From an uncultured Lachnospiraceae bacterium (GTDB taxonomy: Bacteria > Bacillota > Clostridia > Lachnospirales > Lachnospiraceae), in contig CAMVNR010000018.1 in NCBI GenBank assembly GCA_947168905.1, positions 1-35,139 of the forward strand: 35,139 nucleotides of DNA. Reading direction: 5' to 3'. The notes under the pieces are model-generated. The model searched no databases. It was not told where the DNA came from and worked only from the letters and a program-made list of their open reading frames with translations. Within the stretch, counting starts at the first letter, position 1. Each line of letters starts with the position of its first letter. Below are positions 129-33,682 of this stretch, one piece after another. The position numbers and the translations under genes were made by a program.

Positions 129-899
129 TCAAAGCACCTTGGAAAGAAACTCCTTCAGCCTTGGATCCTTCGGATGACTGAAAAATTCATCCGGAGGTGC
201 CATCTCGCGGATTTTTCCGCCGTCGATAAAAATCACCTTATTCGCAACTTCTCTCGCAAACCCCATCTCATGCGTCACAACTATCATCGTCATTCCCTCA
301 TGTGCGAGATCGCGCATCAGGTCCAGCACTTCCCCGACCATTTCCGGATCGAGCGCGGAGGTCGGCTCGTCAAAAAGAATCACCTCGGGATCCATCGCAA
401 GCGCACGGATAATCGCGACGCGCTGTTTCTGTCCGCCCGAAAGCGTCGAAGGATAAGCATCCGCGTAATCCTGAAGCCCGATTCTTGAAAGAAGCGCCAT
501 GGCTTTCTCGCGGGACACCGCTTTGATTTCCTTTGCTGTCGTTGTCCGGTCTTTCCTTCTCTGCCTCCTCAGATCCTTCGTCTTCAGAAGCACCGGTGCG
601 AGCATAATATTCTGGAGCACGGTTTTATTGTTGAACAGATTAAAATGCTGGAAAACCATGACCATTTTCCGGCGGTGAAGGTTGATATCGACATGCATAT
701 CCGCAATATCCGTTCCGTCAAAGATGATCTGTCCTCCGTCCGGATCCTCCATACAGTTTAAGCAGCGCAGAAACGTGGATTTTCCGGAACCCGACGGGCC
801 GATAATGCACATGATATCGCCCCTGTCGACATGCAGGTCGATCCCCGAAAGCACCGGGACCCCGCCAAAGCTTTTCTGCAGGTTAATTACGTCGATCAC
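129..899 (-). CDS. Polar amino-acid ABC transporter ATP-binding protein (GlnQ-like)
   Basis: This is the cytoplasmic ATPase that powers uptake for the polar amino-acid transporter formed with the next two genes. Walker A GPSGSGKS (34-41), the signature LSGGQKQ (153-159), Walker B VILFDEP (173-179) and the switch histidine in VTHEMGFA are all intact. At 256 aa it is slightly longer than the usual ~240 because of a basic insert around residues 107-125 ([13 protein letters not shown]) between Q-loop and signature. The start is a GTG preceded by a strong AAGGAGG about 10 bases upstream, inside the end of the permease gene; the two genes overlap by 17 bases, implying translational coupling. Substrate is probably a polar amino acid or cystine, but the sequence does not settle which. 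Confidence 0.95.
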
Positions 900-1590
900 T
901 TCTCTTGAACCTCCTTTCCATAGTGCGGATTCCGAGAGATATCAGCAAAACGAGCAGGATATAGATCAGCGCCATCACGGTATAGGGCACCATGAATTCA
1001 TAACTGTTCGAGCCGATCCGGTTGAAAGCGACATAAAGGTCAAGCGCGCCGACAAAGCTGATGACCGAGGTCTCTTTGATCAGCGCAATAAACTCGTTGC
1101 CCAGCGTCGGAAGAATATTCTTGACCGCCTGCGGGATCACGATCACACGCATCGTCGTGATAAAACTTAAGCCGAGCGACCGTCCGCCTTCCATCTGTCC
1201 CGGATCCACGGACTGAATGCCGGAGCGCATGATTTCCGAGACATAGGCGCCGCTGTTCAGGCCGAAAACAAGGATTGACACCTGAATACCGGTAATCCGG
1301 GCATTCAGCAGCGGGAAAAATACATAGTAAAACACCAGAAGCTGCACCACAATCGGCGTCCCGCGGAAAGCCGCGACATAAACATCGCAGATTTTATTCA
1401 GCACGCGGGGCAGCGCATGGTATTTCGGCGCAACGCGCACGGCTGCAATCAATGTCCCGATTACAACACCGATCAGAAGTCCCACAACCGCGATGATCAC
1501 CGTATTCTTCAGTCCGGTCAGAACCTCCCGGTACGCACCGGCATCGAGAAAATATTTTAGAAAGGTATCTATTTTCGTACCGAAACTCAT
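883..1590 (-). CDS. Polar amino-acid ABC transporter permease (HisM/GlnP-like)
   Basis: This 235-aa inner-membrane permease has about five hydrophobic segments, beginning with [19 protein letters not shown] near residue 30. It carries the family's [15 protein letters not shown] motif and a coupling-helix EAA-type loop, EGGRSLGLS, followed by VIVIPQA, which contacts the ATPase. The length is normal for the HisMQ family. The ATG at 1590 is preceded by AGAAAGG. It lies 82 bases downstream of the binding-protein gene with a terminator-like hairpin in between, and overlaps the ATPase gene by 17 bases. A permease of this family normally forms a homodimer or pairs with a paralogue; only one permease gene is present, so a homodimer is inferred. 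Confidence 0.95.
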
Positions 1591-1613: not shown

Positions 1614-1659
1614 AAAAACCGGCGGGGCAGGCGAATAGGAAGCGCTGCCTCACCGGTTT
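1614..1659 (-). terminator. Intercistronic terminator-like hairpin (attenuator) between binding protein and permease genes
   Basis: On the minus strand, AAACCGGTGAGGCAG (1659-1645) can pair with CTGCCCCGCCGGTTT (1630-1616). All positions pair except one A/C mismatch and one U-G wobble, and a TTTTTG tract follows. This is the form of an intrinsic terminator, but it lies inside an operon. The likely effect is partial termination, giving more binding protein than membrane components, a usual need of such transporters. Confidence 0.6.
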
Positions 1660-1672
1660 CATGCAAAGTCAG

Positions 1673-2527
1673 TTACCGAAGCGCGTTGATCGCCTTCGTA
1701 ATTGCCGCTGCGGGAGCGGAATCGATAATCACATAATCTATATTTCCGTTCAAAAGATCCTGAACGGCAAGAGATCCGTTCCGGTAGCCGACACACTCGC
1801 AGCCGAGGCCTTCAAAGCCCCAGTCCTCGTCACCCTGGACATAGAACATTCCTGTGGTTCCGTTCTGAACGCCGATCTTGATATCCTTCATTCCCTTCAG
1901 CTTCTCTTCGATCTCGGCAGCCGTCTTGCAGTCCTTGAAAGTATCGTCGCCGGACTTCACGATCAGCTTCTGGGAAGCATTGTAGTAGGAAGTCGTGAAC
2001 TCGACATATTCCTTGCGGTCCTCACGGACGGTAAGTCCCGCCATGGCGATGTCCGCTTTATGCTGTCCGACAGACAGACAGACCGCGTCGAAATCCATGT
2101 CCGAAATCACGAGCTCGAGACCGAGTTCATTCGCGATCACGCCGGCAATCTCCATGTCGATTCCGTAATAGGAATCGCCGTTTTTGTACTCAAAAGGCTC
2201 AAAAGCCGCGTTTGTCGCCACGACAAGCTGGTCCTTGGAGGTGTCTAGCTCAGCAGACTTGACCGCTTCCGGAGTACCGTCGCCGAAATATCTGTCGCAG
2301 ATTTCGTCGAATCGTCCGTCAGACATCATTTCTTCAATCAGTGCATTGACGCTTGCTAACAGCTCCGGCTGGTCCTTGTCGACACCAAAGGCGTATTCTT
2401 CCTCTGTAAGGTCGATGTCAATTACCGCGGCAGTGGTCTTCTTGGAATCACTGTTGCCGGAGGAGCACCCTACAAGCATCGTCAGCGCGAGCGCCATGGA
2501 AAGCGCAATTACAAGCAGTTTCTTCAT
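1673..2527 (-). CDS. Polar amino-acid ABC transporter substrate-binding lipoprotein, apparently circularly permuted
   Basis: The protein binds the transported amino acid outside the membrane and delivers it to the permease. It starts with a lipoprotein signal and lipobox LVGC (Cys21). Residues 99-284 read as the start and middle of the SBP_bac_3 family: LVVATNAAFEPFEY, then GIDMEIAGVIANELG, FDAVCLSVGQHKADI, MAGLTVREDR, and NGNIDYVIIDSAPAA near the C-terminus. The segment that normally ends this family, here IDLTEEEYAFGVDKDQPELL followed by FDEICDRYFGDG, is instead at residues 36-84, straight after the signal peptide. The natural ends are therefore joined by a short linker (TPEAVKSAELDTSKDQ) and new ends opened late in the fold. 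The reading frame is intact and the start has a clear GAGGAGG site, so this is not an assembly break within the gene. It is probably functional. Confidence 0.92.
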   Translation of the reverse strand: MKKLLVIALSMALALTMLVGCSSGNSDSKKTTAAVIDIDLTEEEYAFGVDKDQPELLASVNALIEEMMSDGRFDEICDRYFGDGTPEAVKSAELDTSKDQLVVATNAAFEPFEYKNGDSYYGIDMEIAGVIANELGLELVISDMDFDAVCLSVGQHKADIAMAGLTVREDRKEYVEFTTSYYNASQKLIVKSGDDTFKDCKTAAEIEEKLKGMKDIKIGVQNGTTGMFYVQGDEDWGFEGLGCECVGYRNGSLAVQDLLNGNIDYVIIDSAPAAAITKAINALR

Positions 2528-2644
2528 CTTGTTTCTCCTCCTCTTCTATTTTCTTTTCCGCCCGCGAAAAAAGGGGTTTATCTTAATTGCGGGTTTTCTG
2601 TCAGGGGCCTCCATTCGGAACCCTGCCTATGGAAAATTACTGTG

Positions 2645-5263: not shown

Positions 5264-8200
5264 TTAAAGTCTCGGCTGATTATTCTGAAGATTCGGCTGG
5301 TTCAGGCTGGCAGCAAAGTTTTTGCTGATATTCGCCACCATTGCGCCGCTGTCGACAAAGCCCTGCGAATTCTGCATCAGCGAAGCGCGGTACTGCGGAT
5401 TCTGCACAAAGCGCTCCGCCATCCGTTCCACCTCGGGATGCTGCATCAGCTGACCGTAAACTGTGTTGAACCTGTCGGTATCGAACACGCGCATCTCCTC
5501 GCCGTCAACGTTCTTGCGCGCGGCCGGTGTGACGCTGCATGCAAGCGCTCCAGCGATAATTCTCTTAACTTCCCGTTTATTCTGATAGACAGCCTGGTCC
5601 TGATAAATAAAGTTATTAATCGTATTGGTTACGGGATCCGCAAGGCTGAAGTCTCCGAAATCCGCATTCGGCAGATTTTCGATCGGTACATTCGAATGCA
5701 GAACCTTCGCGCCCGTATTCGGGTTCATTTCGGCAGGGTTGAATCCCGCCCACTGCCGGATCAGATTCCTGTCGTTGATTTCCTGATTCACCTGGTTCTG
5801 ACGGGCCTGCTCTTCTGCCCTATGACGCTGCTGCTGTTCCTGCTCCACCCGGTTCTGCGGCACCGGATGGGCGCCGGGCTGCGGCTGCCGGATCGGGTTC
5901 CGGTTGAAGCGCGCGCGTGCGTTCAGTCCGCTGTAGTCAAGCGCAAGCTCCATGCCTGTTGCCCTCGGCCCGGACAGAGACGCGTTGATCTTGTTCCGGT
6001 ATTCCGCATCGGTCATGTAATGCTGCAGCAGGCTCTTAAAGTGCGGACTGGTTTCGATTTCCTCGGCTTTCTCACGGAAGGCCCGGTTGGTAATGACCTG
6101 TCCCGGCGCAGCCTGCTGAGCCATCTGATAGGCGGCAATCGCGGCTGAAAGGCTCTTGGATGCAAAATAAGTATTTACCGGTCCGTTCGTCAGGGATCTC
6201 GCGGCTTTATTCAGCTGGCCCTGCGCCGAATGAACTGCATGGTTTGTCGAAATCACCGCAGCAGTATCTGCGAGATTCTTCATATTGCCGCTTGACGCCA
6301 TCTGCTGAAGGAGCTTCTTTGACTCCGGTTCCGCAAGCATCCTTTGATACGCCGAGCCCGGCTGAAGGAGCGCTTCCTTCATTTTTTCAACCTCGGAACG
6401 CTGGACAATTCCGGCAGTCCCTTTTTTCGCAACAAGCCATACGGCAAGCACATCCGCAAGCGTTTCAGCGGAGAATTTCTTCTGAACTTCCTTTTTTCTT
6501 TCCTTCAGAAGCTCATCTCCGGTAACGGCGAGTCCGTTCAGCCGTCCGGGAATGAAGGAGTCCGGATCGATTGCCTGGCTGTGGTGCGTTGTATTCAGAC
6601 TCTCGCAGTACGTCCTGAATTCGGCATCCGGCATGTAGCGCTTCAGAATACACAGCGCTTCCTTCAGTCCCGAGACCGGCTTCTCACCGATCGGGCCGCC
6701 CGGAATATCCGTCCCTTTATTAATATACTGTTTCGCGGATTCGATGAGCTCCTTTACCTGGGTGCCCGAGGCAGGTCTTGGCGGGTTTCCGGAATTCAGG
6801 CGGTGAATATGCTTCACCTTGCTCATCATTTCCTTATATTCGGGGTTCCGTTTATCCGCCGAAGAGGGTGCTTTCTTGCGGTGGGTTTTGGTATCCACGG
6901 AGCGCATGACTTCCTGCATGAAGCCGGCATCATTCTTTTCCTGGCCTGCGGGACGCATATAGCGTCTGTCGCGCTCGTTGATTTCCGTCTCCTTGGCGGC
7001 CATTTTCTGGACAATTCCCGCCGCATCGCCCTGAAGCAGCATCTGCTTTACTTCGGCGTTGTCTTCCCGGATCATTGCCTGGAAAGCTTCCGTACGCTGC
7101 AGCTCCCGCATCAGTATATTCATATTGTTCAGGTCGACGGGATCATTCGGTCTTCCGTTATTCTGCATGAAGGCCGCCATCATATTGAGGACGGTTCCCT
7201 CATCAATCGGATCGTTGGCGGGACGCCGCGCGGCATTGTTACGGACCGCGTCCATAAACTGCGCATACGTCATATTGCCCGCATTCAGGTGCCGGGGCTG
7301 ATTCTGTCCCTGCGGATTAGCTTCAGGCCGGGGCTGATTCTGTCCCTGCGGATTAGCTTCAGGCCGGGGCTGATTCTGTCCCTGCGGCTGAACTTCGGGC
7401 TGGGGCTGATCCTGCTGCCGGGGCTGCATCGGAGAGAGGCCCGCTTCTTCGTTTTCCAGACCTCTGTAGGAGCGGTAGCGCATGACTGTATTCGCGATCA
7501 TCGTGTCTACGGAAGGCGCGTCGCCTCCGAGGAGACGCTGCCGTCTTTCCTCATTGAAATTAAACTCCGTAGCCATCAGTCCGACGGCGGGATCATTTAC
7601 CAGCTGATTATACCGGCGGTTGAATTCCTGAGAATCGTATCCGACGACATATTGTCCGCCGATACGGCGGCAGTATGCCTGCATCTGCGACAGGGCAAGG
7701 ATCCGGGCAAAATTCTCCCTTGTCTGCTGCCGGTCCTGCCAGGCCGCCTGATTCTGGGCAAAATTCCGAATGGAACGGATATCCGCCGCAGCGTTTTGGA
7801 CATTCCCCGGATGATCATGCGGCGGCAGGATGAACGGGTTCTCGATCTCGTCCAGGACCCTCGGAGGATTGTGCGGATCTTCCGGATGATACGGCAGGAT
7901 CTCAGCCTGCTCCTGATTCACATTCTGCTGCTGATTCACATTCTGCTGCTGATTCTGCAGCTGCTCCTCGATATCCTGTCCCTCAAAATGGAACTCATCT
8001 TCCTCCTCGTCATCGTCCGGCGCCTGATTATTCGCAGCCGGCTGATTCTGCGGTACGTTCTCCTGAGGATGCAGGCGGTTCTGACGCTGGTTCTCCTGAT
8101 TCTGTACGCGCTGATTGATATCCGCGTCGTTCAGGTTTGCCTCAAAAGCGTCGACTTCATCACCGATGACCCAGTCAGCGCCGATATTGGCCGGATTTGG

Positions 8201-9196
8201 ATTGGCGGGAGCGTCCTGCGGATCTACAAAATTCTCCTGAAAGACAAACTGCTCTTCCTCATCGTCGTCATCCTCTTCCTGCTGCGCCTGAGGCTGAGGC
8301 TGCGCCTGTGCGGCCAGGACCTCCGCGTGACGGGCCGAAATATGAGCGATCATCGCATCTGCCGAAGGCTGGTTTCCGGGTCCGTTCAGAATCTCCGCCC
8401 GGCGTTCGGGCGAATTCAGGAATTCCTGCGTCATCGTGTTCACGGCAGGCGAGTTCACGAGTTCCTGATAGCGGCGGTTGAATTCCACCTCGTCATACAC
8501 AGGAACCATCTCGTGATTTGCGTTCTCCACCCGGTAAACCGGCATCTGGGACAGCACCAGCACACGGGTAATATTCGAGCGGACGACGTTCGGATTCGTA
8601 TGGCTGTCCTGATCCAGGGCAAAGGCGCGGATCTGATTCACTACTCTCGTCGCTTCGGCAAAATCATGCTCACTGTTGTACTGCGGCAGATTGTTGACGT
8701 TCAGAGGGTAGTCAAGAACCCTGGCCGGCTGCGGCTGATTCATCTGCCTGTAATCCGCGAGCGCATTGACAACGAGCAGCGCCGGATTCGGCTGGCCGTT
8801 CGGCCCTGTCATGATCTGCTGCCGGTACTGCGGATTCGTAACGAAGCTGTTTGCCATAATCTGTACGGCAGGATCGTTGCGGTACTGCTGATAGAGGGGA
8901 TCGAAATCATGATTATTGACGACCCGGAAGGTTTCTCCGCGAAGCGTAAACTGATATACCGGTATTTCCGAAAGCGTGAGGATCATCGCAAAAGCATCGG
9001 TCATGCTTCTTTCATCCCTCAGAAGATTTTCCCGGTTCGGCAGACCAGCGATAAAAGTTCTGTAATCACTCACACGGGTAAACGGCTCCCCCATCGGTAG
9101 CACCGGAAGATCCTCCGTCCGGTTGCCCTGATCAAAAACCCTGGGCGCCTGCGCCGGCCCGGGGTTGTTGTTGTTCCTGTTATACTGTCCGCCCAT
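5264..9196 (-). CDS. Giant Q/N-rich modular repeat protein, 1310 aa
   Basis: No known family is recognised. At least four copies of a ~110-140-aa helical module occur at about residues 20-150, 158-295, 447-580 and 1165-1305. Each opens with an [A/P]-[R/K]-V-[F/L]-[D/H] to LP boundary motif, followed by ALSxMPVY-like and FNRRYxxLxxxPAVxxM patterns and ending with a MIAN-like segment. The modules are joined by Gln/Asn/Pro-rich linkers and two acidic-aromatic stretches (DDDDEEEQFVF near 309, DDDEEEDEFHF near 394). Residues 640-1165 are a different, lysine-richer helical part. There is no signal peptide or membrane segment, so it begins life in the cytoplasm. Start ATG with AGGAG nine bases upstream. 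I infer a scaffold or a substrate of the type IV-like machine, because it shares the machine's operator. Confidence 0.85.
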   Translation of the reverse strand: MGGQYNRNNNNPGPAQAPRVFDQGNRTEDLPVLPMGEPFTRVSDYRTFIAGLPNRENLLRDERSMTDAFAMILTLSEIPVYQFTLRGETFRVVNNHDFDPLYQQYRNDPAVQIMANSFVTNPQYRQQIMTGPNGQPNPALLVVNALADYRQMNQPQPARVLDYPLNVNNLPQYNSEHDFAEATRVVNQIRAFALDQDSHTNPNVVRSNITRVLVLSQMPVYRVENANHEMVPVYDEVEFNRRYQELVNSPAVNTMTQEFLNSPERRAEILNGPGNQPSADAMIAHISARHAEVLAAQAQPQPQAQQEEDDDDEEEQFVFQENFVDPQDAPANPNPANIGADWVIGDEVDAFEANLNDADINQRVQNQENQRQNRLHPQENVPQNQPAANNQAPDDDEEEDEFHFEGQDIEEQLQNQQQNVNQQQNVNQEQAEILPYHPEDPHNPPRVLDEIENPFILPPHDHPGNVQNAAADIRSIRNFAQNQAAWQDRQQTRENFARILALSQMQAYCRRIGGQYVVGYDSQEFNRRYNQLVNDPAVGLMATEFNFNEERRQRLLGGDAPSVDTMIANTVMRYRSYRGLENEEAGLSPMQPRQQDQPQPEVQPQGQNQPRPEANPQGQNQPRPEANPQGQNQPRHLNAGNMTYAQFMDAVRNNAARRPANDPIDEGTVLNMMAAFMQNNGRPNDPVDLNNMNILMRELQRTEAFQAMIREDNAEVKQMLLQGDAAGIVQKMAAKETEINERDRRYMRPAGQEKNDAGFMQEVMRSVDTKTHRKKAPSSADKRNPEYKEMMSKVKHIHRLNSGNPPRPASGTQVKELIESAKQYINKGTDIPGGPIGEKPVSGLKEALCILKRYMPDAEFRTYCESLNTTHHSQAIDPDSFIPGRLNGLAVTGDELLKERKKEVQKKFSAETLADVLAVWLVAKKGTAGIVQRSEVEKMKEALLQPGSAYQRMLAEPESKKLLQQMASSGNMKNLADTAAVISTNHAVHSAQGQLNKAARSLTNGPVNTYFASKSLSAAIAAYQMAQQAAPGQVITNRAFREKAEEIETSPHFKSLLQHYMTDAEYRNKINASLSGPRATGMELALDYSGLNARARFNRNPIRQPQPGAHPVPQNRVEQEQQQRHRAEEQARQNQVNQEINDRNLIRQWAGFNPAEMNPNTGAKVLHSNVPIENLPNADFGDFSLADPVTNTINNFIYQDQAVYQNKREVKRIIAGALACSVTPAARKNVDGEEMRVFDTDRFNTVYGQLMQHPEVERMAERFVQNPQYRASLMQNSQGFVDSGAMVANISKNFAASLNQPNLQNNQPRL
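7294..7389 (-). repeat. 36-bp tandem repeats inside the 1310-aa gene
   Basis: Two perfect 36-bp units (7294-7329 and 7330-7365) and a third partial, diverging copy run in frame and encode a Gln/Asn/Pro-rich 12-residue unit with NPQGQNQPRPEA. The perfect identity of the units points to recent expansion. A second small array of 18-bp units (7915-7950) in the same gene encodes QQNVNQ repeats. Both lie in linkers between helical modules, so length changes would alter spacing and not folding. Confidence 0.9.
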
Positions 9197-12991: not shown

Positions 12992-15025
12992 TTACGCGCT
13001 CTGCGAGCCTAAAATCTTCTCATTCCGGTCGCGCAGATCATAGAATACTTCATCTGCGCGGAACATATTGCTGCGGATCTCGGTCAGATCCATCGGTCCG
13101 AATTTGTAATACGGGCACTTATAGGATGGAGTGTATTTCGTCTTCAGCGGGAACGAGTTAAAGGAAACGATAATGCTGTTTCCGGTGGACTCCTGGTTAT
13201 TCAGGCGCTGCAGCTCCGAAGGATAGATCAGAGGACGCACCTGTGTATTTGTAGAAACATTGATGTCTCCCTGTTTGGAGCCGATCGATGAGGAAGTACT
13301 GTTCGTCCGAACCGTCATATTGCCGCACATTTCGGAGAACATCTTGCAGGTATCGGTGTCGTTGGAGCCGATAAACATCTTGACGCCGCAGTTGCCGATA
13401 ACGATATCGGCGACTTCCTTTCCATACACATTCTGCAGCTGGATAAAAGACTGCACCACCATGGAGAACCAGATTTTACGGGAACGGCCGACCGTGATCA
13501 TCTGGCCGAACTTGTCAATCTTGGGCATATTACCAAATTCATCCATGATAAAATAGACGTTGTGGGGGAGCGTCTGTCCCGGCAGGTCCGTTGCGATCTT
13601 GATCAGGCCTTTATAGGTGCTGAGGATAAACAGCGACGCGAGCGCGTGTCTCGTATCTTTTTCATCCGGGATCTTCAGGAAGAGCGCCGTAGGCTCTTCG
13701 ACAAATTTTCTCACCTGGATATCTGTGGTACTGGTCAGAGCGCAGAGACCGCGGTCGTTGAAAAGATTCATCTTGTCGAAGGTAATGGACATATAGGAGC
13801 CAAGCGTTGTATCCGGCGCGGTCATCACCTGCCTGGACAGCTGATAGGCCTGCGACAGCTTGGAGCGTCCTTCGAAATAATCCTTCAGAATCTGGTAGTT
13901 GTTTTCAGAGTTTCCGAGCGCCTTATTGACATTGAAAAGATTAAACTTTTCCTTCGTCATGCCAAGCTCCGGATTGGCGCTGTCCTCAAGCATCGCGAGG
14001 CACACAGCCATGACGATCGAGCGGGCGCCCTTTTCCCATAAGGGATCCTTTTCGTTCTGCACCGGGATCAGACCGCCGATCAGATCGGAAAGGTCTTCAT
14101 ACATTTCATCGTAAATTTTCTGCTGCTCGACCTGAATATCGTCGCGGCAGTGCGATACATCCGTATATGCGCGGCCGTTCCATTCCACCCAGACCTCTCC
14201 GTCTTCTCCTTCCCCGTTCATCCGGCGCAGGTCCGGGTAATTGGACATCGGGTCAATATGGGCAAGAATTCCTTTCCCCATCTGCAGGAACTGCTGGTAG
14301 GCATCCCAGATCGGTTCGAGCGGATTCCAGCGGCTCGAAGAATAGGTATCACGCAGGTCAAGCACCATTACATTGTAGCCGCGGCTCTTGAGAAACTGGG
14401 AATGCAGGTCGAAAAGCTCGCCCTTTGGGTCGGTCATGATCATGCTGGAACCGCAGTTTGTCGCGCCGATCAGCTGAATCATCGGATTGATAAACGTCGT
14501 TGTTTTACCGGAACCGGTAGCGCCGATGACAAGCGCATGCACTCCGGGCTTGAAGTTTCCGACGAGTTTCCCGTTCTTATCCAGGACAGCCCGCACCGGC
14601 ACACCGTCGTTTTTGCAGTCCTTCAGCGTTTCGTATGTGAACGGCGGGAAATACTTGTCGCGTTCCTTATCCGTCAGGAAACGGCTGTTTTCCAGAGATC
14701 CCTCGACCATGTTGTCTTCGGCGCTGCCCTTCAGCATCCGGGTGCTTGCCCGGCTCGTGCGAAGTCCTCCGTTGATGGCGTAGACAATGCCGCCGATGAC
14801 CGCGGCTCCCAGACCGATTCCCCAGGTTTTGCCTTCAATAAAATACTGCCAGCGGAAGCGCCAGCTTTCTCCGGCAATGCTGTTGCCGATGTTGTCCACA
14901 ATAAAGCGGAAAACCACGCCGAAAAACAGTACAATACCGATCAGAATGAAAATATTCAGTATAATCGATTTTTTATCGGCATTTTTGATTTTTTCAGAGA
15001 TGAAGTCCTTTATCTTCCCGAACAT
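12992..15025 (-). CDS. VirD4/TraG-family type IV coupling ATPase
   Basis: This 677-aa membrane ATPase should select substrates and pass them to the type IV channel. Two N-terminal membrane helices (about 22-48 and 69-86) precede the RecA-like motor. Walker A is GATGSGKTT near residue 170 and Walker B is FIMDEFGNMPK near 490, the exact form seen in Gram-positive TraG/VirD4 proteins. MTDPKGELFD and VRKFVEEPTALFLKIPDEKD also match the family. AAGACAGGAGG precedes the ATG. Normally this protein docks a relaxase-DNA complex, but no relaxase, accessory DNA-binding protein or transfer origin was seen here. A protein-only substrate, as known for some effector-exporting type IV systems, is therefore plausible. 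Confidence 0.93.
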   Translation of the reverse strand: MFGKIKDFISEKIKNADKKSIILNIFILIGIVLFFGVVFRFIVDNIGNSIAGESWRFRWQYFIEGKTWGIGLGAAVIGGIVYAINGGLRTSRASTRMLKGSAEDNMVEGSLENSRFLTDKERDKYFPPFTYETLKDCKNDGVPVRAVLDKNGKLVGNFKPGVHALVIGATGSGKTTTFINPMIQLIGATNCGSSMIMTDPKGELFDLHSQFLKSRGYNVMVLDLRDTYSSSRWNPLEPIWDAYQQFLQMGKGILAHIDPMSNYPDLRRMNGEGEDGEVWVEWNGRAYTDVSHCRDDIQVEQQKIYDEMYEDLSDLIGGLIPVQNEKDPLWEKGARSIVMAVCLAMLEDSANPELGMTKEKFNLFNVNKALGNSENNYQILKDYFEGRSKLSQAYQLSRQVMTAPDTTLGSYMSITFDKMNLFNDRGLCALTSTTDIQVRKFVEEPTALFLKIPDEKDTRHALASLFILSTYKGLIKIATDLPGQTLPHNVYFIMDEFGNMPKIDKFGQMITVGRSRKIWFSMVVQSFIQLQNVYGKEVADIVIGNCGVKMFIGSNDTDTCKMFSEMCGNMTVRTNSTSSSIGSKQGDINVSTNTQVRPLIYPSELQRLNNQESTGNSIIVSFNSFPLKTKYTPSYKCPYYKFGPMDLTEIRSNMFRADEVFYDLRDRNEKILGSQSA

Positions 15026-16192: not shown

Positions 16193-19100
16193 TCAGGGAG
16201 TCTCGGCCGTAGTTTCTTCAGACGTACTTTCCAAAGTGTTTTGTTCAGCTTCTTTTGATGCCCTGCTGGCTTCCTCTTCTGCGGCTGTTTCTGCTTCCAG
16301 GAGCTGATTGTACGCCCCGGAAAGCGTATCGGTTTCAGGTTTCACCGTCACCACCAGGCTGAACAGCTCCGTTCCGTTCGTGCCCGAATTAAAGGTGATC
16401 AGATAGCTTAAGTTGGAGCCCGTGTAATTCTTCGGCGCGTTCAGAAGCACATCCGTGGTGCCCGTAGTGAAGGAACCGTTGCCCGCTCTCATGGTACCGA
16501 TAATGTTCAGTACATTCTGGGCGGCCGCGCGCTCTTCATCTGTGGAATCCTGAGCGCTGTAGAGCGTATTCGCCTTCGTCTCGTACGCAAGAATCGTATC
16601 CTCCGAATAGCTGTGCCGTACGCCTGTCTCCGCACGTCCTTTCGCCTGTGTGGCAGGATCATAGCTGTTCAGCTGGGCAGTGAAGCCTTCCGAAGCTCCG
16701 ACTCTGGGCGCCACCTTCACACTCTCGCCGGAATCCAGCAGCACGCCGCTGGTATCCGTCTTTAACAGGGTCCTGGTTTCTTCTGTCACGCCGTCGGTAT
16801 TGATAACACTCAGATCCGCAAGGCTGCGCACCTTCTCCCAGTCGCTGATCAGCTGCGGGAGCTTATCGGTTTCGTTTCCGATGAGCGTATCCAGGGTAAA
16901 TCCAACCTCTTCGTTCTCCACGGCTGTCACCACCAGACGGTAGCGCAGCTTGTGATCAGTGAAGTTTCTCGGGGTGACCAGCGTGAACCCGGTCGGCTTT
17001 TCCTCTGTGACTTCCACAGTAAAGCTTCCCTTCGAAGCCCGGATCGCGTTAATTTCCGCGATGACGGCCTTTCCTGCGTCAATTTCCGCCTGGTTCGTCA
17101 CATCCGGACCGACGGACTTGAGCGCCAGAGCATAGTACTCATCAAGCTCCTGCTCCGTATAGCTGTACGTACCCTTCGTAAAGTCCGCAGGACTCTCCAC
17201 CGTACCTGCGGGATCCATCGCCACAAAGCGATAGGTAATGCCCTGCGAAGTACCGGAGATGCGGATGTCGGTTTCAACCGTCGCGCCGGAGTCTACCGAC
17301 AGCGTTCCGATCTCGCCGCTCTTGATGGAGATTCCGTTCGCCTTCCTCTCCGTACCCGTTTCCGAGGTCTTGACCATCAGAACCGGCTCGTTGTCCGTGG
17401 GAACTTCCTTGCTCTTATAGACCAGGTTGTTTCCAACGAGAACGATGTCACCCAGGAATACCGTCTTCGGATCTTCCTCGACGATGGTCTTGTTCACTTC
17501 ACGGCCGATCGTGGAGCCTTCCAGACCGTTTACCGCGGTAATCGAATCCAGCGTCCAGGACGCAATGGAGCCGCTGTCTGCATTGTATGGTTCAAGCGTG
17601 ACATAACGCAGAGACTCAAATGCCGGAATAATGACTTTCAGCGTGTCGGTCTGTCCCGCCTGAAGCGGTTTGTCTTTCTCGTCATTCAGCTGTATGTACG
17701 GCCGGATATCGGGAATCAGCCAGCTCTGCTCCGCTCCATAGAGGTCGTAGTAGCCGATCGTCATGCGCACCGGGTCATCCGTACCGCCGGAGCTGGACGC
17801 CGTGGCCTGCCCGGTTTTGATCTTCAGGGTAAGGACTTCCGACCTGCCCCTCGGATTGAATCTGGCGGGGGTGCCTGTCGGTGTGAATCCGTCGTCGATA
17901 CTAAGTTCCCGGATCACGGTGCCGTCAATCTTCTGCGTCGCAATGTACACATTTTCAAAACCGAGGTCCAGTGTTCCGGTCTTGACAACATTGACTCCGT
18001 TGATGCTTGAAATATCTCCGAGGTCAAAATCAAGCTCCAGGATCTGACCAGGCCTGATCTGCGTGTATCCCGCGTCTGTCAGATAAATATATTTCGACCT
18101 GAGTTCCTGATCCGTCGCACCCGCCGGTGTAAAGTAGACTGCCAGAGCCATATCGCGATCCAGCGCAATCAGGTCCTGGGTCGGATTGTTCGCCTGCACC
18201 TGCATCATGATGCGCTGAACGCCGGCATCCGGCTTCGCGTTCACGGATACACTCATCGTACTCTTCTGGTCCGCATTCAGGACACCGGACAGATAGTAGG
18301 TCTCAATCAGAACGCCCGAACGCACCCTCTGCAGGATACCGTAGCTGATCGGTGCCGAAAGCGTCCCGGTCGATTTCGTCTTGACACTGACACCCATAAT
18401 GTCTTCGAGGTTCTTCGCTCCGATGCCGAGCTTATAGAAGTACGGCTGGCCGGAAAGATCATAAGCAAAGTCCAGCGTACCTGCGCCTGCCTGGCTGGTC
18501 TCAAGCGTCATCGCATCCTTGTACAGGATTCCTGCCGTCAGATAGTAGGTCGAAGGATCGGCTGCCTTTTCTCTGGTTGCAGGATAAATGAAGAGGTTCA
18601 GCGTATCATTCTTGGACTTCGGCTCTCTGGCAACCACCGGAGACCAGGTATTGGTATCCTTATTGGTCTGAATCGGCGCGTCGATAAAGGAAATATTGAT
18701 CGGCTGGACGCCCGAATAATTGTTGTGCGCGTTATCGTCCGATTTCCCGCCGAAGACCTGAAGCAGCGTTTCCATCGTATCGGCGTTCCATTCGGTAATC
18801 ATCGTCAGCTTCTCGCCGTCCCCGTAGCGGTAAGCGTACTCGCCTTCGGCATTCAGGTAGCGGCGTCCCGTTCCGTTGACAAGATGCACACTGACATTCG
18901 TAATGGTCCATGTGGTGGACCGGTCGGATCTGACGTACAGCGTCATATCGACAATCTTGGTAATATCGCTGACGGTGATAAAGAAGCTGTCGGTTCTGCC
19001 CGCGCGGAAATGATACTGCGGGTTGCTGACCGCGTAATTCACTTCGGTTTGTCTTAAGCCGTCGTCATAGGTTCTGTTGTAGGAGCTCGTGCGTCCTGCG

Positions 19101-21967
19101 TACTGGTCCATCAGATAGACGACATCCAGTCCGTCCGCGCGTCCGACGCTGCCCTTGGCGTCAACGTAGGAATAATCCCTTCTCAGGCCGCCGACAAACT
19201 GCTGGCATTCCTCATATCTCGGATTGCCGTCCGCGTCAAGTCCGACATTGCGCTGGTATGCGCCGGTCGTGATATTGATCTGCAGCTTGGCACTGTAGGT
19301 CGAAGAGGTCACATTGTAGGTTGTCGAAATTTCCGCAGCCGAATGACCCTCCGCGCCCTTGATCGTACCGACTTCCGCAGAATCATGGTATTCAATGCCG
19401 ACCCATCCGAGCCCGTCTTCATTGTCGCTTTCGAACTTCCAGGTCGGAACCAGCGCAGCGTCGGTATTCTGCATGACTTCGATGTAGCTGATCTTCATCT
19501 TGTCATAAATATTGCTGTTGGAATCCTGGTTGTCCGGGATAATCATAATCGACGACAGTTCACCGTAATCGATGACCGTCGGAATATCAAAGTACACATC
19601 GGCGGAGGTCCTGAACGCGTCACCGTCGATCTGCTGGTTGGCCAGCACGATACCCGAATTGCCGTGTTCGAAAATCAGCTGGAAGTAGAAGAGGTTCGCC
19701 GAACCGCAGTCATCGTTGATGGACGTAACCTTGTCGCTTCCGACCTTGACATGTACCGTGTAAATGCGGCGCTGCTTCGTAAATCCGAGATCCCGCTGCG
19801 CATCTTCATAAGTCATGCCGTTGATCAGCTTGGACCAGTCGACATCGTCCTTGGTAATGACCTCCGTTCCGTCCGCATTGGAGCCTTTCCACTCGCCGTC
19901 ATCCTGAATCAGGTCGCCGGGCACCCAGGTATCGCTGTTGGGATTCGCTTCCGGATCCTCAGTGATATCATAATCGGGGTTTTTGTCCAGGTCGCCCGAA
20001 ATAGCGCCGGCAGAGAAACAGATTTTATGCGCCGTCACATTTCGTGTATACAGAAGGTGGGAAAGGAACCGGGCCTGATTGGGGTCATCCAGATCACGGT
20101 CCTTACTCGCCGTTTCAACAAATTTGCCTTCGCGGATATCAAACGATTCCACATACTGGACCTGGCAGCCCTTGACCTGCCATTCATCACCGCCGGTCAG
20201 TTTGTAGGACACTCCCGTAAAGCTTGAGACTTCCGGAAGCGGAATCATGAAACGCACCTTGCCCGCCTGGCTGAAACCGTAATTATATGCGAAGTCCTCT
20301 ACATTTCCGGGCCACTCCCCGTAGAACTGGCGCACATAGTCGCGGACCATAAAGGGCTGGCTCGTTCTGGCTTTGCCGGTCAGGTCAATATAGCTGAACT
20401 CCATCTGAATATCGGATGTCGTACCGGCGTTTTCCACATTGTCGGTATAAAGCGTAATCAGGTAGCGGTCTCCCGTTGTTTTCGGCTTAAGCACCATGGT
20501 ATCGGAATACTGCTGCAGATAAAAATACGTTTCTGTCCCCGCACTGACCCTGAGTCCGTCTGCGGAGGTAGCTACAGACGCCGAAACAGGCGTTTCATTA
20601 TACCGGTAACGCACCGTCGCGCCGTCGAGCGCAATTTCAGCCTCGGAGGCATGCTCGTAGATCGAGAAATTCAGGTAGCGGATTTCTTCGGCATTGCTCC
20701 GGTCGAGTCTTTTTGCAAACACGGGATCCGTCGCCGTCCCCGTCATCTGAAGTCCCGTTTTCTGCTCCACACTCTCTTTTCCGATCGTCACCGATACATT
20801 GACGATCTGCTTAAATGCAGGAAGCATCAGCGGTACGGCGGTGGAGTCTCCCTGCTGCGCATAGCCCGCAATATGCGGACTGTTCAGTATTTCGTTCAGC
20901 TGCCCGACCGCATTGATTACAAAGGGCAGGGTGATTTCACGAACGTCGCCCCACAGATCGATATACCGGACAGTAAAGGCAGCGGTCTCAGAAAGCTTCA
21001 GCATGGCAATCGAAGGATTGCTTCCGCACTCATAGTAAGGCGCAAGGTTCTCAAATCCGGCGCCTGCCTGGTCCGCAAGGTCCATCGCCAGCACAATCCG
21101 GTTCGCGACCTGGGACGAATAGGCTTCCCCGGCCCTTGAATTTCCCTTATAGGAACCTTTCTGCGACTTATTGACAAGGACACAGTCCGAAAGTCCGCCC
21201 GTGTCTCCGTATTTTACGATGTTGAAGGATCCGCCGGAAGTCCGCCATTTGAAATTGCCGCCGGTCGTTCCCATATCCATATCACAGATGATTTCACCGT
21301 CAAAGTCGATATATCCGGTATCGGAATACCAGCCGTACATTTCCAGTCCGTACAGGCGGTCTACCCGGAAAACCCTCAGGCTCTGGCAGGACCAGGTCAC
21401 TTCGCTTAAGGTATGCTGTCCGAAAATCTGGATCTTATCGATCGAACTGATTTCATGCGGCGCTTCAAACAGGAACTGGTCCGTACTGACGGAGCGAAGC
21501 GTCTGCTTCGCATAAAGGGGTGCCGTCGAGTACGAAAAAAGTTCATTCACGGAATTTCTTCTCGCCTCGCGGTTTCCTGCTGACGCGGCGATTTCATAGC
21601 CGTTCGACAGGGCGTCCAGCTTCGGCATCAGAACTGTCGAATGTTTTTTCCGGTCCGTTGTCGTGTAATGCAGATTGAAATACACGACATTGTCGGCCGC
21701 GCCGCCGTTACGGATCGTACCGGTACTGACCTCAAGAATATAGTAGTTTTTCCCGGTTACGCCGGTCCCGGCTTTCTGTTCTGAGCCGCCGAGTTTTTTC
21801 CATGCAAGAGCCGTTTCCCCGGAGCCGTCATCCGCCGCAAAAGCTTCCGCCGGCAATGCGCTTAAAAGCATTACTGCTAAAAGCAGCATTGAGACCATGC
21901 GAAGAAGCCTCCTCCTGCTCTTGAAGGAAGCACTCTTATGCGGTTTTCCTGCTTCTGTCCTGATCAT
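16193..21967 (-). CDS. Giant secreted multidomain surface protein, 1924 aa
   Basis: A long basic N-region with a twice-arginine-rich start (SRRRLLRMVSMLLLAVMLLS) leads to a signal cleavage site around AEAFA/ADDG. The mature part looks like repeated beta-sandwich domains. Recurrent boundary motifs are YIDLWGDVREITLPF, YIDLTGKARTSQPFMV and YYDLYGAEQSWLIPDIRPYI. Two segments resemble PLAT-type sandwiches: near residue 75 (YYILEVSTGTI, then VVYFNLHYTT) and near 730 (RIYTVHVKVGSD, then LFYFQLIFEHG). The acidic tail (EAETAAEEEASRASKEAEQN) has no LPXTG motif or membrane anchor. It lies between the VirB4 and coupling-ATPase genes, so it is probably an exported, cell-surface part of the machine. Start ATG with GAGGAG nine bases upstream. 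Confidence 0.88.
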   Translation of the reverse strand: MIRTEAGKPHKSASFKSRRRLLRMVSMLLLAVMLLSALPAEAFAADDGSGETALAWKKLGGSEQKAGTGVTGKNYYILEVSTGTIRNGGAADNVVYFNLHYTTTDRKKHSTVLMPKLDALSNGYEIAASAGNREARRNSVNELFSYSTAPLYAKQTLRSVSTDQFLFEAPHEISSIDKIQIFGQHTLSEVTWSCQSLRVFRVDRLYGLEMYGWYSDTGYIDFDGEIICDMDMGTTGGNFKWRTSGGSFNIVKYGDTGGLSDCVLVNKSQKGSYKGNSRAGEAYSSQVANRIVLAMDLADQAGAGFENLAPYYECGSNPSIAMLKLSETAAFTVRYIDLWGDVREITLPFVINAVGQLNEILNSPHIAGYAQQGDSTAVPLMLPAFKQIVNVSVTIGKESVEQKTGLQMTGTATDPVFAKRLDRSNAEEIRYLNFSIYEHASEAEIALDGATVRYRYNETPVSASVATSADGLRVSAGTETYFYLQQYSDTMVLKPKTTGDRYLITLYTDNVENAGTTSDIQMEFSYIDLTGKARTSQPFMVRDYVRQFYGEWPGNVEDFAYNYGFSQAGKVRFMIPLPEVSSFTGVSYKLTGGDEWQVKGCQVQYVESFDIREGKFVETASKDRDLDDPNQARFLSHLLYTRNVTAHKICFSAGAISGDLDKNPDYDITEDPEANPNSDTWVPGDLIQDDGEWKGSNADGTEVITKDDVDWSKLINGMTYEDAQRDLGFTKQRRIYTVHVKVGSDKVTSINDDCGSANLFYFQLIFEHGNSGIVLANQQIDGDAFRTSADVYFDIPTVIDYGELSSIMIIPDNQDSNSNIYDKMKISYIEVMQNTDAALVPTWKFESDNEDGLGWVGIEYHDSAEVGTIKGAEGHSAAEISTTYNVTSSTYSAKLQINITTGAYQRNVGLDADGNPRYEECQQFVGGLRRDYSYVDAKGSVGRADGLDVVYLMDQYAGRTSSYNRTYDDGLRQTEVNYAVSNPQYHFRAGRTDSFFITVSDITKIVDMTLYVRSDRSTTWTITNVSVHLVNGTGRRYLNAEGEYAYRYGDGEKLTMITEWNADTMETLLQVFGGKSDDNAHNNYSGVQPINISFIDAPIQTNKDTNTWSPVVAREPKSKNDTLNLFIYPATREKAADPSTYYLTAGILYKDAMTLETSQAGAGTLDFAYDLSGQPYFYKLGIGAKNLEDIMGVSVKTKSTGTLSAPISYGILQRVRSGVLIETYYLSGVLNADQKSTMSVSVNAKPDAGVQRIMMQVQANNPTQDLIALDRDMALAVYFTPAGATDQELRSKYIYLTDAGYTQIRPGQILELDFDLGDISSINGVNVVKTGTLDLGFENVYIATQKIDGTVIRELSIDDGFTPTGTPARFNPRGRSEVLTLKIKTGQATASSSGGTDDPVRMTIGYYDLYGAEQSWLIPDIRPYIQLNDEKDKPLQAGQTDTLKVIIPAFESLRYVTLEPYNADSGSIASWTLDSITAVNGLEGSTIGREVNKTIVEEDPKTVFLGDIVLVGNNLVYKSKEVPTDNEPVLMVKTSETGTERKANGISIKSGEIGTLSVDSGATVETDIRISGTSQGITYRFVAMDPAGTVESPADFTKGTYSYTEQELDEYYALALKSVGPDVTNQAEIDAGKAVIAEINAIRASKGSFTVEVTEEKPTGFTLVTPRNFTDHKLRYRLVVTAVENEEVGFTLDTLIGNETDKLPQLISDWEKVRSLADLSVINTDGVTEETRTLLKTDTSGVLLDSGESVKVAPRVGASEGFTAQLNSYDPATQAKGRAETGVRHSYSEDTILAYETKANTLYSAQDSTDEERAAAQNVLNIIGTMRAGNGSFTTGTTDVLLNAPKNYTGSNLSYLITFNSGTNGTELFSLVVTVKPETDTLSGAYNQLLEAETAAEEEASRASKEAEQNTLESTSEETTAETP

Positions 21968-22003: not shown

Positions 22004-25000
22004 TCAGCCTGCCCTCTCCCGCCGGCGCCGCTCCTGCTGAGCCGCCGCTTCGGCAATCAGGTCGTCCAGTGTCATTTCTTCGATTTCTCTTCCGTTCGCC
22101 CTCATCTTCTCGAAAGGCGACATATTCATAAGGGTTGCGGCGAAGCTGCAGAAGGAAGACATGAAGTCATCGTCCTCGTCCGTGTCATCCTCATCTTCCT
22201 CGTCCTCGTCGTCGTAATCCTCATCATCATCAAACTCGTCTTCATCCTCGTCGAAGTCTTCGTCCTCGTCCTCGTCGTAATCCTCATCGTCCGCGAAGTC
22301 GTCGTCTTCGTCCGAGCTGTAGTCGTCTTCGGAAAGCCCGAAGAGTGCCGCAATCTCGCCGTCTTCTTCTTCCGGATAGTCGTCATCGTCAAGACCATCG
22401 AAGGGACTTGCAAGCTCTTCGTCCTCTTCATCCATAGAAAGCTCTGTAAGCTCTTCGTCTTCCTCGTCGTATTCGCTTTCCCCGGTTTCTCTGACAGGCT
22501 CCTCCTGCTTTTTCCTGAGACGTTCGTTTTCCTCCTGGAGAGAACGGATTCTTTCATCCATCTCCCGGCGCATGCGCTCCATCTCTTCGTCTTTTTCCCT
22601 AAGGGCCGCATCTTCTGCTTTCTGCGGCGCGGCATAGACAATATTCGCCGCCTTCTCCGGCGCAGCGTTCCCGGTATTTTTCACCGGACTGAGCGGATTC
22701 TCGCCGCTCTTTTCCGCAGCCGTGGCCATCCGGTCAAGCGCATTCGCGATCATGCTGAAAACGGTCATCGAAGCCGGATCAACCGAAGGCATGGCAGGCT
22801 CCGGCGTACTGGTTTCGATGGTCTGAAGCTGCACGGGTTCGGGTTTTCGTTCTTCCTTCTGAGGCTCGTCGTCTGCAATAGAAAAGGTCACAATGGAATC
22901 GACCGCAGGATCTTCTTCCGTAAGTGATGCCGCATTCACGCCTTCTCTTGCGAGAAGCTCTTCATATTCGTCCTGTTCAAAAATGTTCAGGGTTACCTGC
23001 CCGGACCTTGCGGAATCCGTACGCTTACCGGTAATGTTATTCCGGCGTTTCTCAGCCATCGCCTCTTCATGGGCCTCACGGCTCGGTCCGACAAAGTCCT
23101 CCCAGTTGTCCGCGCCTTCGTCTCCCGAGAAGTAATGGCTCCGGTAATCCTGAGCTTCAAACATTTCAATGATGCCCGGAGCGGTATTGATCTGGAAGCT
23201 GGAACGGCTGGTCGGACTCAGAATCGTAAAGGCCTGGCCTCTGGGCGCCTGGACGATTTCCTCCTGCTCCGACTCGTTGATTCCGCCGGCGTTGGCATAC
23301 AGATTCACCAAATCCTGCATGTCGTTCGGCGCAAGCGAGAAAATAAAGCTGTACTGGCAGGCATTGATGATCGCGGCGGATTTTCGCATCAGGTCATCGG
23401 TGCCGACAAAGTCCTTGATATTCTGCGTGATGACAATCTGCATACCGTTATACTTACGGATTCTTTTTGCCAGCTGGAACATGAAGTCCAGCGCGATCGG
23501 GAACTTTGCGTCGATGAAGACATGCGCCTCATCGATTACGACCACGATCTTGCGGTTGGCGCGGTATCTCAGATTGTAATCACGGTTCTTAATGATTTCG
23601 TTGTCAATGTATTTCAGCACCAGCAGCATCTGCGCGTTCGCAATGGTCTGGTTGCGGTTCGCAAGCATGGACTGGAAGTTGAAGACCGTAAAATTCTCGT
23701 CGGTGGTGATGGTCGAAGGACCGTTCCAGATGTTGGCATTTCTTCCGCCCGTAGAGAATTTTGCAATATAATTCATCAGTGTTCCGAGCATGTCCCGCGT
23801 AAAGGGGTTGTCGCTCTGCTGGAACTCTTCGAGCACCTCATCGTACAGGTCGTCGAAAATCGGATAATCCTCGGGCGAAAGCCGCGACAGATCCGTTTCT
23901 GGCGTAATATTGTGCGTCAGGTACATGTGGTCGACGAGCGTGTTCAGATACTCCATGGCATCCTTTTCGCAGTCGGGTATGATCTGACGGAAAAACTCCT
24001 CCAAAAACTGCAGATGGGTCGCATAGCTTCCGGATGTCGTTCCGCTCTCCCCTGCCTCATCGTCATCCAGCGAAGTGATGATATGGAAGGGATTCAGGCG
24101 GCCGTACTGGGCATTTCCGACGTTGATGACCTGGCCGTGCAGATTCCTGGCAAGCTCCGTGTACTCGTTCTCCGGGTCGAGGATGAAAATCTTCGCATCC
24201 TCCGACGAGAGATTTGCAAGAAGCGATTTGGTCGCATAGGATTTACCGGAACCGGATTTTCCGACAATGACCATATTGCTGTTGACGCGCTCCGAGTCCC
24301 TGCGGAAAAAGTCCACAAACACCGGAACCCCTTCGGATTCTCCGAGCTTGACGCCGCCCTCATCGGACACATGGGCAAAAACCCAGGGATAGCAGGCAGC
24401 GACCGTATTCGAAGGAATGCCGCGGCCTTCCTTTGAAACCGGATCAAGCGCGCTGACCTGAGAGCCGATAAATGCCTGCACCTGGTCAAATTCCATATTG
24501 TTCAGCCGGAATCCGCCCTCTGCCCAGGTCCGGCGGATGCTCTTCTTCATATCCGTCATGACCGGGATATCGGAGGGGCGGTCCCGCCAGGCTTCATGAA
24601 TTGTCCGGGTCGCAGCGATATCGTAGGCCGTCACGAAGATATTGGTTTCCAGAAGCGTCTCGTTATCTGCCTGCAGCGTCATGAGAAGCTCCTGAAGGGT
24701 ATCAATATGCGCTTCGATTTCCATCCGTTTGGAGTCCACGCCCGTCGCGGACCACTGCCCGCGCAGTTCCTGAAGGGAACGGTCGATGTTCCGGATGGCC
24801 TTCGTGCGGTCCATCGGCCTGAACTTGACGACGACCTTGGTCGCCGGGATGCTCATGACGCTTGCAAGCCACGAATCATCCACCATCGTCGGATAGGTCA
24901 CGACCCGGAAATTATGTGTGACAATCTGGTTGACCTCAACCTTCCGCACACGGATGTCCACAGAATCGGGCTGCGCCCAGCGGACCAGGTCTTCGTCGCG

Positions 25001-25924
25001 GACCTTCTCGACATCATGTTCATCGAAATCGATCTGGTTCGTATATTTCAGGAAGACCGCAAGTGCACGGTTGTCCAGTCTTCTTACGCTTAATTCTCCC
25101 GTGGAAAGCATCTGCATCGCTTCGCGAAGCTCGATTTCCAGCCTTCTTCTGTCGCTTTCGAAAAGCACCAGATAGTAGAAAGGCGTTACGATATGGTTGT
25201 CGTTCGCATAACTCAGAAGCTCGTTGATCCGGTCATATTTGATCTCGACACGCGCCTTCAGTTCTTCTTCGCTGTATACGCCGTTCTCATACGCCGCCGA
25301 AAGCTGGTCCAGCGTATCATATTCTTTTGAAATATAGCTGTCGTACATGATCGGACGTTCCAGCTTGACGATATTGGCGCAGTAATCCGCGGGAATATTC
25401 CTCAGAATCCTTCCGAAGCAGTTCTCGATCGAATTGCGTCTGCGGTGCTCGCTGAAGAAGCGGAATTCGACCGGATCGATCTCTATGACCGCCCCGTAAT
25501 ACGCCCCGTTCAGGTAGACAATCTGGTCGTCCTCGATTCCGGTGAAGGGAATGATTTTATCCATGCTTTCCCCGGAAAGACCGGCGGATGAAGCTTTTTT
25601 CCCGGTCTCTGCCGGTTCGTCCTGATTCCCGGAAAGCCTGTACAGATCCTGATCGGTGCAGGCCCGGACAAACCGGTGCTTATATCCCATATAGCTTAGG
25701 ATATGTCCGATATATACATAGTTCGGCTGCTCATCCATCCTGACGATCAGGAATACGAACACGGCGGCAAGCGCGATACAAATTGCCAGTTTATACGGAA
25801 GATTGGAAATCAGTACGAGGATCAGTAGCCCCATTCCGATGCCGCCCACGATAATGTCCCCGACAGTTACGCCGCGGAACAGCTCCACATGGACTTTCGT
25901 TTTTTCCGGAATCATTCTCTGCAT
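22004..25924 (-). CDS. PrgI-VirB4 fusion ATPase of a type IV secretion-like system, with long acidic tail
   Basis: Residues 1-93 are a PrgI-like membrane domain (IPEKTKVHVELFRGVTVGDI, two hydrophobic segments about 20-62, then MDEQPNYVYIGHILSY). The VirB4 ATPase follows: an N-domain, then Walker A GKSGSGKSYATKS near 555, Walker B VVVIDEAHVFID near 795 and RKYNGMQIVITQNIKDF. After residue ~960 a further ~350 residues hold a glutamate-rich coiled coil (MERMRREMDERIRSLQEENE) and a run of Asp/Glu blocks (about 1155-1258), ending in a short basic part. In Gram-positive conjugative elements PrgI is usually a separate small gene before VirB4, so the fusion and the tail are unusual. It should energise assembly and transport at the membrane. 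The ribosome site before the ATG is weak. Confidence 0.93.
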   Translation of the reverse strand: MQRMIPEKTKVHVELFRGVTVGDIIVGGIGMGLLILVLISNLPYKLAICIALAAVFVFLIVRMDEQPNYVYIGHILSYMGYKHRFVRACTDQDLYRLSGNQDEPAETGKKASSAGLSGESMDKIIPFTGIEDDQIVYLNGAYYGAVIEIDPVEFRFFSEHRRRNSIENCFGRILRNIPADYCANIVKLERPIMYDSYISKEYDTLDQLSAAYENGVYSEEELKARVEIKYDRINELLSYANDNHIVTPFYYLVLFESDRRRLEIELREAMQMLSTGELSVRRLDNRALAVFLKYTNQIDFDEHDVEKVRDEDLVRWAQPDSVDIRVRKVEVNQIVTHNFRVVTYPTMVDDSWLASVMSIPATKVVVKFRPMDRTKAIRNIDRSLQELRGQWSATGVDSKRMEIEAHIDTLQELLMTLQADNETLLETNIFVTAYDIAATRTIHEAWRDRPSDIPVMTDMKKSIRRTWAEGGFRLNNMEFDQVQAFIGSQVSALDPVSKEGRGIPSNTVAACYPWVFAHVSDEGGVKLGESEGVPVFVDFFRRDSERVNSNMVIVGKSGSGKSYATKSLLANLSSEDAKIFILDPENEYTELARNLHGQVINVGNAQYGRLNPFHIITSLDDDEAGESGTTSGSYATHLQFLEEFFRQIIPDCEKDAMEYLNTLVDHMYLTHNITPETDLSRLSPEDYPIFDDLYDEVLEEFQQSDNPFTRDMLGTLMNYIAKFSTGGRNANIWNGPSTITTDENFTVFNFQSMLANRNQTIANAQMLLVLKYIDNEIIKNRDYNLRYRANRKIVVVIDEAHVFIDAKFPIALDFMFQLAKRIRKYNGMQIVITQNIKDFVGTDDLMRKSAAIINACQYSFIFSLAPNDMQDLVNLYANAGGINESEQEEIVQAPRGQAFTILSPTSRSSFQINTAPGIIEMFEAQDYRSHYFSGDEGADNWEDFVGPSREAHEEAMAEKRRNNITGKRTDSARSGQVTLNIFEQDEYEELLAREGVNAASLTEEDPAVDSIVTFSIADDEPQKEERKPEPVQLQTIETSTPEPAMPSVDPASMTVFSMIANALDRMATAAEKSGENPLSPVKNTGNAAPEKAANIVYAAPQKAEDAALREKDEEMERMRREMDERIRSLQEENERLRKKQEEPVRETGESEYDEEDEELTELSMDEEDEELASPFDGLDDDDYPEEEDGEIAALFGLSEDDYSSDEDDDFADDEDYDEDEDEDFDEDEDEFDDDEDYDDEDEEDEDDTDEDDDFMSSFCSFAATLMNMSPFEKMRANGREIEEMTLDDLIAEAAAQQERRRRERAG

Positions 25925-32413: not shown

Positions 32414-32414
32414 C

Positions 32415-33668: not shown

Positions 33669-33682
33669 TGTTTTTTCTCCTT

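Follow-up and report, generated by a model that had tools for sequence, protein, structure and literature searches.

In canonical SBPs, the binding proteins of ABC importers, lobe 2 is inserted into lobe 1, which carries both termini. Circular permutation tends to be deduced from comparisons of remote relatives, and there is debate about how and how often it happens. Natural permutants among SBPs have been described, e.g., Bacillus subtilis OpuAC (2b4l), which was reported to be circularly permuted relative to other glycine-betaine-binding proteins (CPSARST, PMC2395249), and TpMglB-2 of Treponema pallidum ("Type Ic / Cluster Bc"), a naturally permuted lipoprotein SBP whose authors, as we do below, propose a link to membrane anchoring (PMC4990184). 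GlnPQ of Lactococcus illustrates another variation, in which a tandem of two binding domains (SBD1-SBD2; 6h30), each of them canonical, is fused to the permease.

The window analyzed here, i.e., the whole 35,139-nucleotide stretch of contig CAMVNR010000018.1 of an uncultured Lachnospiraceae bacterium, carries a gene at 1673..2527 (minus strand, 284 aa) for a circularly permuted SBP_bac_3 lipoprotein. We read it, with a probability of about 0.88, as the circularly permuted gene of a functional amino-acid-binding lipoprotein that serves a GlnQ/GlnP-type ABC importer, one of many such permutants that have arisen recurrently in Clostridia at two sites, likely through duplication and deletion. Segment orders were classified with separate profiles for the three family segments, so that C-N-M denotes type A (the order of the window protein), M-C-N denotes type B, and N-M-C is canonical.

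All features of this gene lie on the minus strand. A ribosome binding site in the sequence (GAGGAGGAG, 2535..2543) stands ca. 8 nt upstream of the ATG, and the protein (MKKLL...) opens with a signal peptide and LVGC lipobox (residues 1-21, 2465..2527, read from the sequence) that end at Cys21, the predicted lipidation site, which is at least 90% conserved in the A1 alignment. The segment that follows (residues 33-84, 2276..2431) corresponds to the canonical C-terminus by alignment, profile, and model, and comprises the last strand of lobe 2, the second hinge strand TEEEY, the final strand of lobe 1, and two helices. A linker (residues 85-98, 2234..2275, GTPEAVKSAELDTS) leads from the old C-terminus to the old N-terminus, behind which come the canonical N-terminal part with lobe 1 and the first hinge strand (residues 99-191, 1955..2233) and finally lobe 2 (residues 192-284, 1676..1954), which runs to the new C-terminus at DSAPAAAITKAINALR, 15 residues past ligand Asp269. 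No second C-terminal segment was found after lobe 2, and the permease gene starts 82 bp downstream.

Membership in PF00497 is supported by 104.7 bits against a cut-off of 26.4, and the match falls into two pieces that each exceed this cut-off. Profile positions 1-98 match window 1868-2227 (E 1.3e-22) and positions 97-131 match window 2282-2518 (E 5.2e-6), i.e., the front of the protein, so that the pieces stand in reversed order and break at complementary points (profile 97/98), as is characteristic of a circular permutation. Phmmer alignments to AncQR (4zv1) split in the same manner (residues 100-278 to 11-176 and residues 39-83 to 189-233), as did those to the solved structures of ArgBP, GlnH, and AncCDT-1. 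Instead of the collinear family order (lobe-1 N part, lobe 2, lobe-1 C part), the protein has every family segment once, rotated to C-N-M and with a linker joining the old ends, and it is therefore a permuted member of PF00497. A preliminary description made from the sequence alone had already put the normal SBP_bac_3 end ahead of the normal start, let the chain stop where the missing end would attach, and considered frame, signal peptide, and ribosome site intact, and all of this agrees with our results. It had also delimited the moved segment to residues 36-84, which do align to the C-terminus of the family, but the segment begins earlier, at about residue 33 with the strand AVID.

The ligand residues are distributed over both remaining parts of the chain, with N106, F109, T166, and R171 in the canonical N-terminal part and Q221, T224, T225, and D269 in lobe 2. 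The residues expected for an amino-acid ligand (Arg and Asp for its alpha groups, an aromatic residue, and Thr) are conserved as R171, D269, F109, T166, and T224, and R171, D269, Q221, and T224 are retained in permuted and canonical proteins alike.

The gene is adjoined by those of its partner proteins, a permease of the HisM/GlnP family (883..1590, minus strand) and a GlnQ-like ABC ATPase (129..899, minus strand), which together with the lipobox are features expected of the SBP lipoprotein of an ABC importer. A survey of Clostridia for the same order, which the preliminary description had proposed, uncovered by genome scan at least 80 other type-A loci with 42-69% identity over nearly the full length in records of Lachnospiraceae, Clostridiaceae, Oscillospiraceae, and other Clostridia, and permease and ATPase genes lie downstream in 75 of 80. 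The window protein thus belongs to a conserved clade, and the order, kept at so many loci, is due neither to chance nor to an assembly error. The order is the same throughout a 45-row alignment, in which N106, F109, R171, T224, T225, and D269 are invariant. At four loci (L001, L002, L018, L072) an in-frame fusion joins the new C-terminus of the SBP to the permease, which marks this terminus as a true protein end. A truncated gene is ruled out by these fusions together with the conservation at 80 loci, and an assembly artifact by the many independent genomes, including 22 species of one genus.

Pfam alone would give a partial SBP_bac_3 match, as if the N-terminal segment were an extra domain on a truncated SBP. 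Such an added domain is hardly credible, because the canonical C-terminus aligns with residues 39-83 and with no other part of the protein, and a second copy is missing from every relative; the conservation at 80 loci and the permease fusions likewise contradict it. The predicted structure is one compact two-lobed protein.

Some observations on operon context and surroundings stand apart from this argument. Five type-A genes (L009, L012, L032, L033, L036) have no permease or ATPase gene within 3 kb and are possibly orphan SBPs for a distant importer. Between the SBP stop and the permease start, an inverted repeat in the CCGGCGGGGCAGGCGAATAGGAAGCGCTGCCTCACCGG region (window 1618-1665) is perhaps an attenuator that favors SBP over permease output; Rfam found no RNA element in the window. 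Further on, window 5264-9196 encodes an acidic Q/N-rich protein of 1310 aa with several similar repeated blocks. By eye, window 9849-31009 resembles a portion of an integrated conjugative element, with genes for a VirD4/TraG-like coupling ATPase (12992-15025), a secreted surface-like protein of 1924 aa (16193-21967), a VirB4-like ATPase (22004-25924), and a VirB6-like protein with many membrane segments (25990-28068). A two-component pair of a LytTR/SARP-like response regulator and a sensor histidine kinase (31607-33761) adjoins a gene for a polysaccharide-deacetylase-like protein with repeated Ig-like domains (33683-35020).

The structure prediction that the preliminary description had called for gave an AF2 model (from the 45-row alignment) with pLDDT 91.3 and pTM 0.81, rising to a pLDDT of ca. 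97 over residues 31-70 and hence through the moved segment. The elements predicted there (E33-36, E43-45, E48-50, H54-70, H72-81) are those of the canonical SBP C-terminus. In structure searches, which are bound to chain order and aligned only model residues ~94-284, the model matched ligand-bound closed SBPs (Z 16-17, 1.9-2.5 Å), best of all cluster F SBPs. Model confidence, secondary structure, and homology together suggest that residues 33-84 occupy the place of the canonical C-terminus.

This arrangement has consequences for how the protein is tethered. Residues 181-185 of GlnBP form the second hinge strand, and alignment to GlnH puts window residues 41-45 at this position, so that residues 33-40 should lie on lobe 2. 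The type-A cut would then separate the last helix of lobe 2 from its last strand, and the window protein would be "inside out" with a continuous lobe 1 inserted into a lobe 2 that bears both termini, i.e., the lipid anchor in front and the free end or permease fusion behind. The earlier suggestion that the permutation moves the lipid anchor to another face of the fold is in line with this alignment. Since hinge strands and ligand pocket are both retained, binding and closure are predicted to proceed as usual, and the importer would dock an SBP that is tethered through its other lobe. The window protein most likely works as an ordinary amino-acid SBP.

Searching 100 genomes of the family revealed a second cut site, type B, in which lobe-2 sequence (DDLxGKxIGVQxGTTGD) comes first, followed by the C segment, a linker, and the N part, so that the protein ends with the first hinge strand (QVIIVRK). 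A type-B AF2 model (pLDDT 91.7) found its best structure match, aligned in order, in B. subtilis OpuAC (Z 13.4, 212 residues, 4.5 Å). Both cut types would shift the termini, and hence the anchor, from lobe 1 to lobe 2. Type-B proteins are fused to the permease at five loci (L099, L109, L123-L125), and tandem chains at two others (L210, L211) combine two SBDs with a permease. We also noted a minus-strand ORF of 1151 aa (L212) that joins two type-B SBDs, permease, and ATPase, a whole importer half, with an additional C-terminal stretch in one chain. Diverged proteins of type-B order are encoded at L205, L206, L207, L208, and L209, some of them fused to a permease and the last with an N-terminal sugar-SBP-like domain fused on. 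The type-B protein L038b (the ORF of L038 from 5515) is the nearest relative of the type-A pair L289/L290, which suggests a switch between the two permuted orders.

To follow the history of these orders, trees were built on the three segments restored to canonical order. On an 80-row tree, type A needs four changes, each of them forced by supported branches, and the best tree that keeps type A in a single clade falls short by 169 log units (p-AU 7.5e-6), which rules out a single type-A origin. On a 74-row tree, with genes added from a Pfam sample that favors neither cut, type A needs seven changes (bootstrap 7-7), seven of them forced by well supported branches, and type B seven changes of which five are forced; these counts do not separate gains from reversions and give no direction. 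Separate type-A origins are represented by the window clade, L136/L139 next to canonical L174, L143/L144 next to L184, L098 next to L189/L191, L284 next to L264, L289/L290, and L203, the last of these next to L082, a canonical paralogue in the window's own genome. The type-A cut point is constant, the chain ending 12-16 residues past the ligand Asp at the five origins read by script, and L203, L284, and L289/L290 end in the same region as read by eye. From these trees and orders, the permutation has recurred about a dozen times at two points in the family.

The frequency of permutants was estimated in samples that were drawn with Pfam. Of the roughly 75-80 SBP_bac_3 genes in 31 Clostridia genomes, eight, spread over five genomes, were permuted (G000:C18, G105:C18, G109:C21, G116:C12, G116:C23, G116:C30, G128:C2, G128:C39). 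G105:C18 and G116:C23 were assigned from the order of their matches and from type-A and type-B matches over the full length. The sample favors neither cut, and all permutants read in it belonged to type A or type B. Across the phylum, a Pfam sample of 46 genomes had few permutants, with one or two further reversed pairs (G497:C14, G528:C14; match order only), and in 398 sampled genomes type A was found at E<=1e-55 in two only, both of the window's family.

One such change is recent enough for the genus g162 (family f45) to contain both orders at one chromosomal locus, with permuted and canonical orthologues that are 83-87% identical after rotation (87% for permuted L143 and canonical L184). 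In four species the same genes flank the SBP-permease-ATPase operon, with the SBP permuted in two (G157, G299) and canonical in two (G184, G257). In a blastn comparison of G157 and G184, a block of ca. 149 bp (81%) has left the 3' end and now directly follows the lipobox, with collinear upstream region and signal peptide (70%), core (83%), and downstream hairpin (83%). The gene is present in 79 of 85 g162 genomes; 22 match the permuted query over its full length, and the other 57 match the N-M part only, like canonical ones, a reading that was checked for L247-L254, L184, L190, and L197. Close copies of both forms were not seen together in any of the 79 genomes, and three-frame inspection past the stop in G157 and G299 showed no remnants of the lost 3' segment. 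The proteins of the 22 permuted species group as a single clade (99/95) that is nested within canonical ones, and their ligand residues are intact.

Such nesting weighs against one ancient permutation whose scattered pattern would stem from later reversions and gene exchange, as do the rejection of a single type-A clade and the differences of sister pairs in linkers and nearest canonical relatives. Though the change counts are blind to gain versus loss, we consider this scenario very unlikely.

In the linkers of the g162 permutants, the old end YIP(V/A)EG is joined to the old post-lipobox sequence FTT(I/V)ESGK (YIPVEG to FTTIESGK in L236), as expected from an in-frame tandem fusion. Phmmer alignments to the GlnPQ tandem (6h30) further map window residues 45-238 to 187-367 and L103 residues 38-272 to 104-326, across the SBD1-SBD2 junction. 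On the basis of this linker homology and of permutants that read like a stretch across a tandem junction, we infer an origin by duplication and deletion. Most likely, an in-frame tandem duplication of the SBP gene would come first, followed by loss of the mature N-terminal part of the first copy and of the C-terminal segment of the second, with the signal peptide retained throughout. We found no tandem precursor within the exact subfamily.

Why the same two points recur can be explained with or without a benefit of the new order. Duplication and deletion might often make permutants of which only those cut in two tolerant loops survive, with no gain from a lobe-2 anchor. Homodimeric GlnP-type permeases can accept an SBP in either orientation, permuted and canonical orthologues occupy the same operon with no other change seen, and 22 species have retained the permuted form with intact ligand residues; we give such neutral recurrence not quite an even chance. 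It has to contend with the fact that all permutants found have their termini on lobe 2 although lobe 1 is rich in loops, and that type A arose at least seven times within few residues of one point. Alternatively, selection could favor the order for the shift of the SBP's anchor to lobe 2 or for the chance to fuse its end to the permease. Permease fusions occur in both types and, among tandem type-B proteins, extend to a single SBD-SBD-permease-ATPase chain, which speaks for this explanation, yet most permutants are separate lipoproteins and canonical SBPs can be fused to permeases as well, as in GlnPQ; we regard it as plausible at somewhat under even odds, and the two explanations as about level. 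In a stronger and more tentative form, which we would rather doubt than assert, selection acts at two fixed points to re-root amino-acid SBPs onto lobe 2 instead of lobe 1, permutation serves as a repeated evolutionary switch, and its duplication-deletion route can be caught between species of one genus.

With orthologues that are 83-87% identical at the same locus yet differ by a permutation, and with a family in which this has happened about a dozen times at two points, it becomes directly testable by which route permutants arise, what they cost in fitness, and what role lobe tethering has. The permuted SBPs are also ready-made biosensor scaffolds. Order-bound searches miss the moved segment, and annotation lists such proteins as partial SBPs.

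In open-licence texts, we found no report of permuted amino-acid SBPs, two cut sites, repeated origins, or an orthologous in-situ case beyond OpuAC and TpMglB-2. Natural permuted SBPs are already known, while their recurrence and the in-situ event appear to be new, as is, within this literature, a second cut site in the same family. With canonical cluster F / type II SBPs (GlnH/GlnBP, ArgBP, ArtJ, AncQR 4zv1; PF00497), the window protein shares sequence family, ligand residues, transporter partners, and, by model, probably the fold, but its segments are rotated and its termini would lie on lobe 2 rather than lobe 1. OpuAC is likewise a natural type II SBP permutant, to which the type-B model aligns in order; it belongs to another ligand family, is an old and diverged case (<24% identity among members), and differs from the window protein in its cut, and neither recurrence nor an in-situ event was reported for it. 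TpMglB-2 has the sugar-binding fold of cluster B, permuted within the N lobe and with a fourth crossover added, whereas the window protein retains both hinge strands with none added and falls outside Cluster Bc / type Ic by its SBP_bac_3 sequence and best structure matches in cluster F. The giant Clostridia proteins L210-L212, finally, resemble GlnPQ in fusing an SBD tandem to the permease, but build it from type-B SBDs instead of canonical ones.
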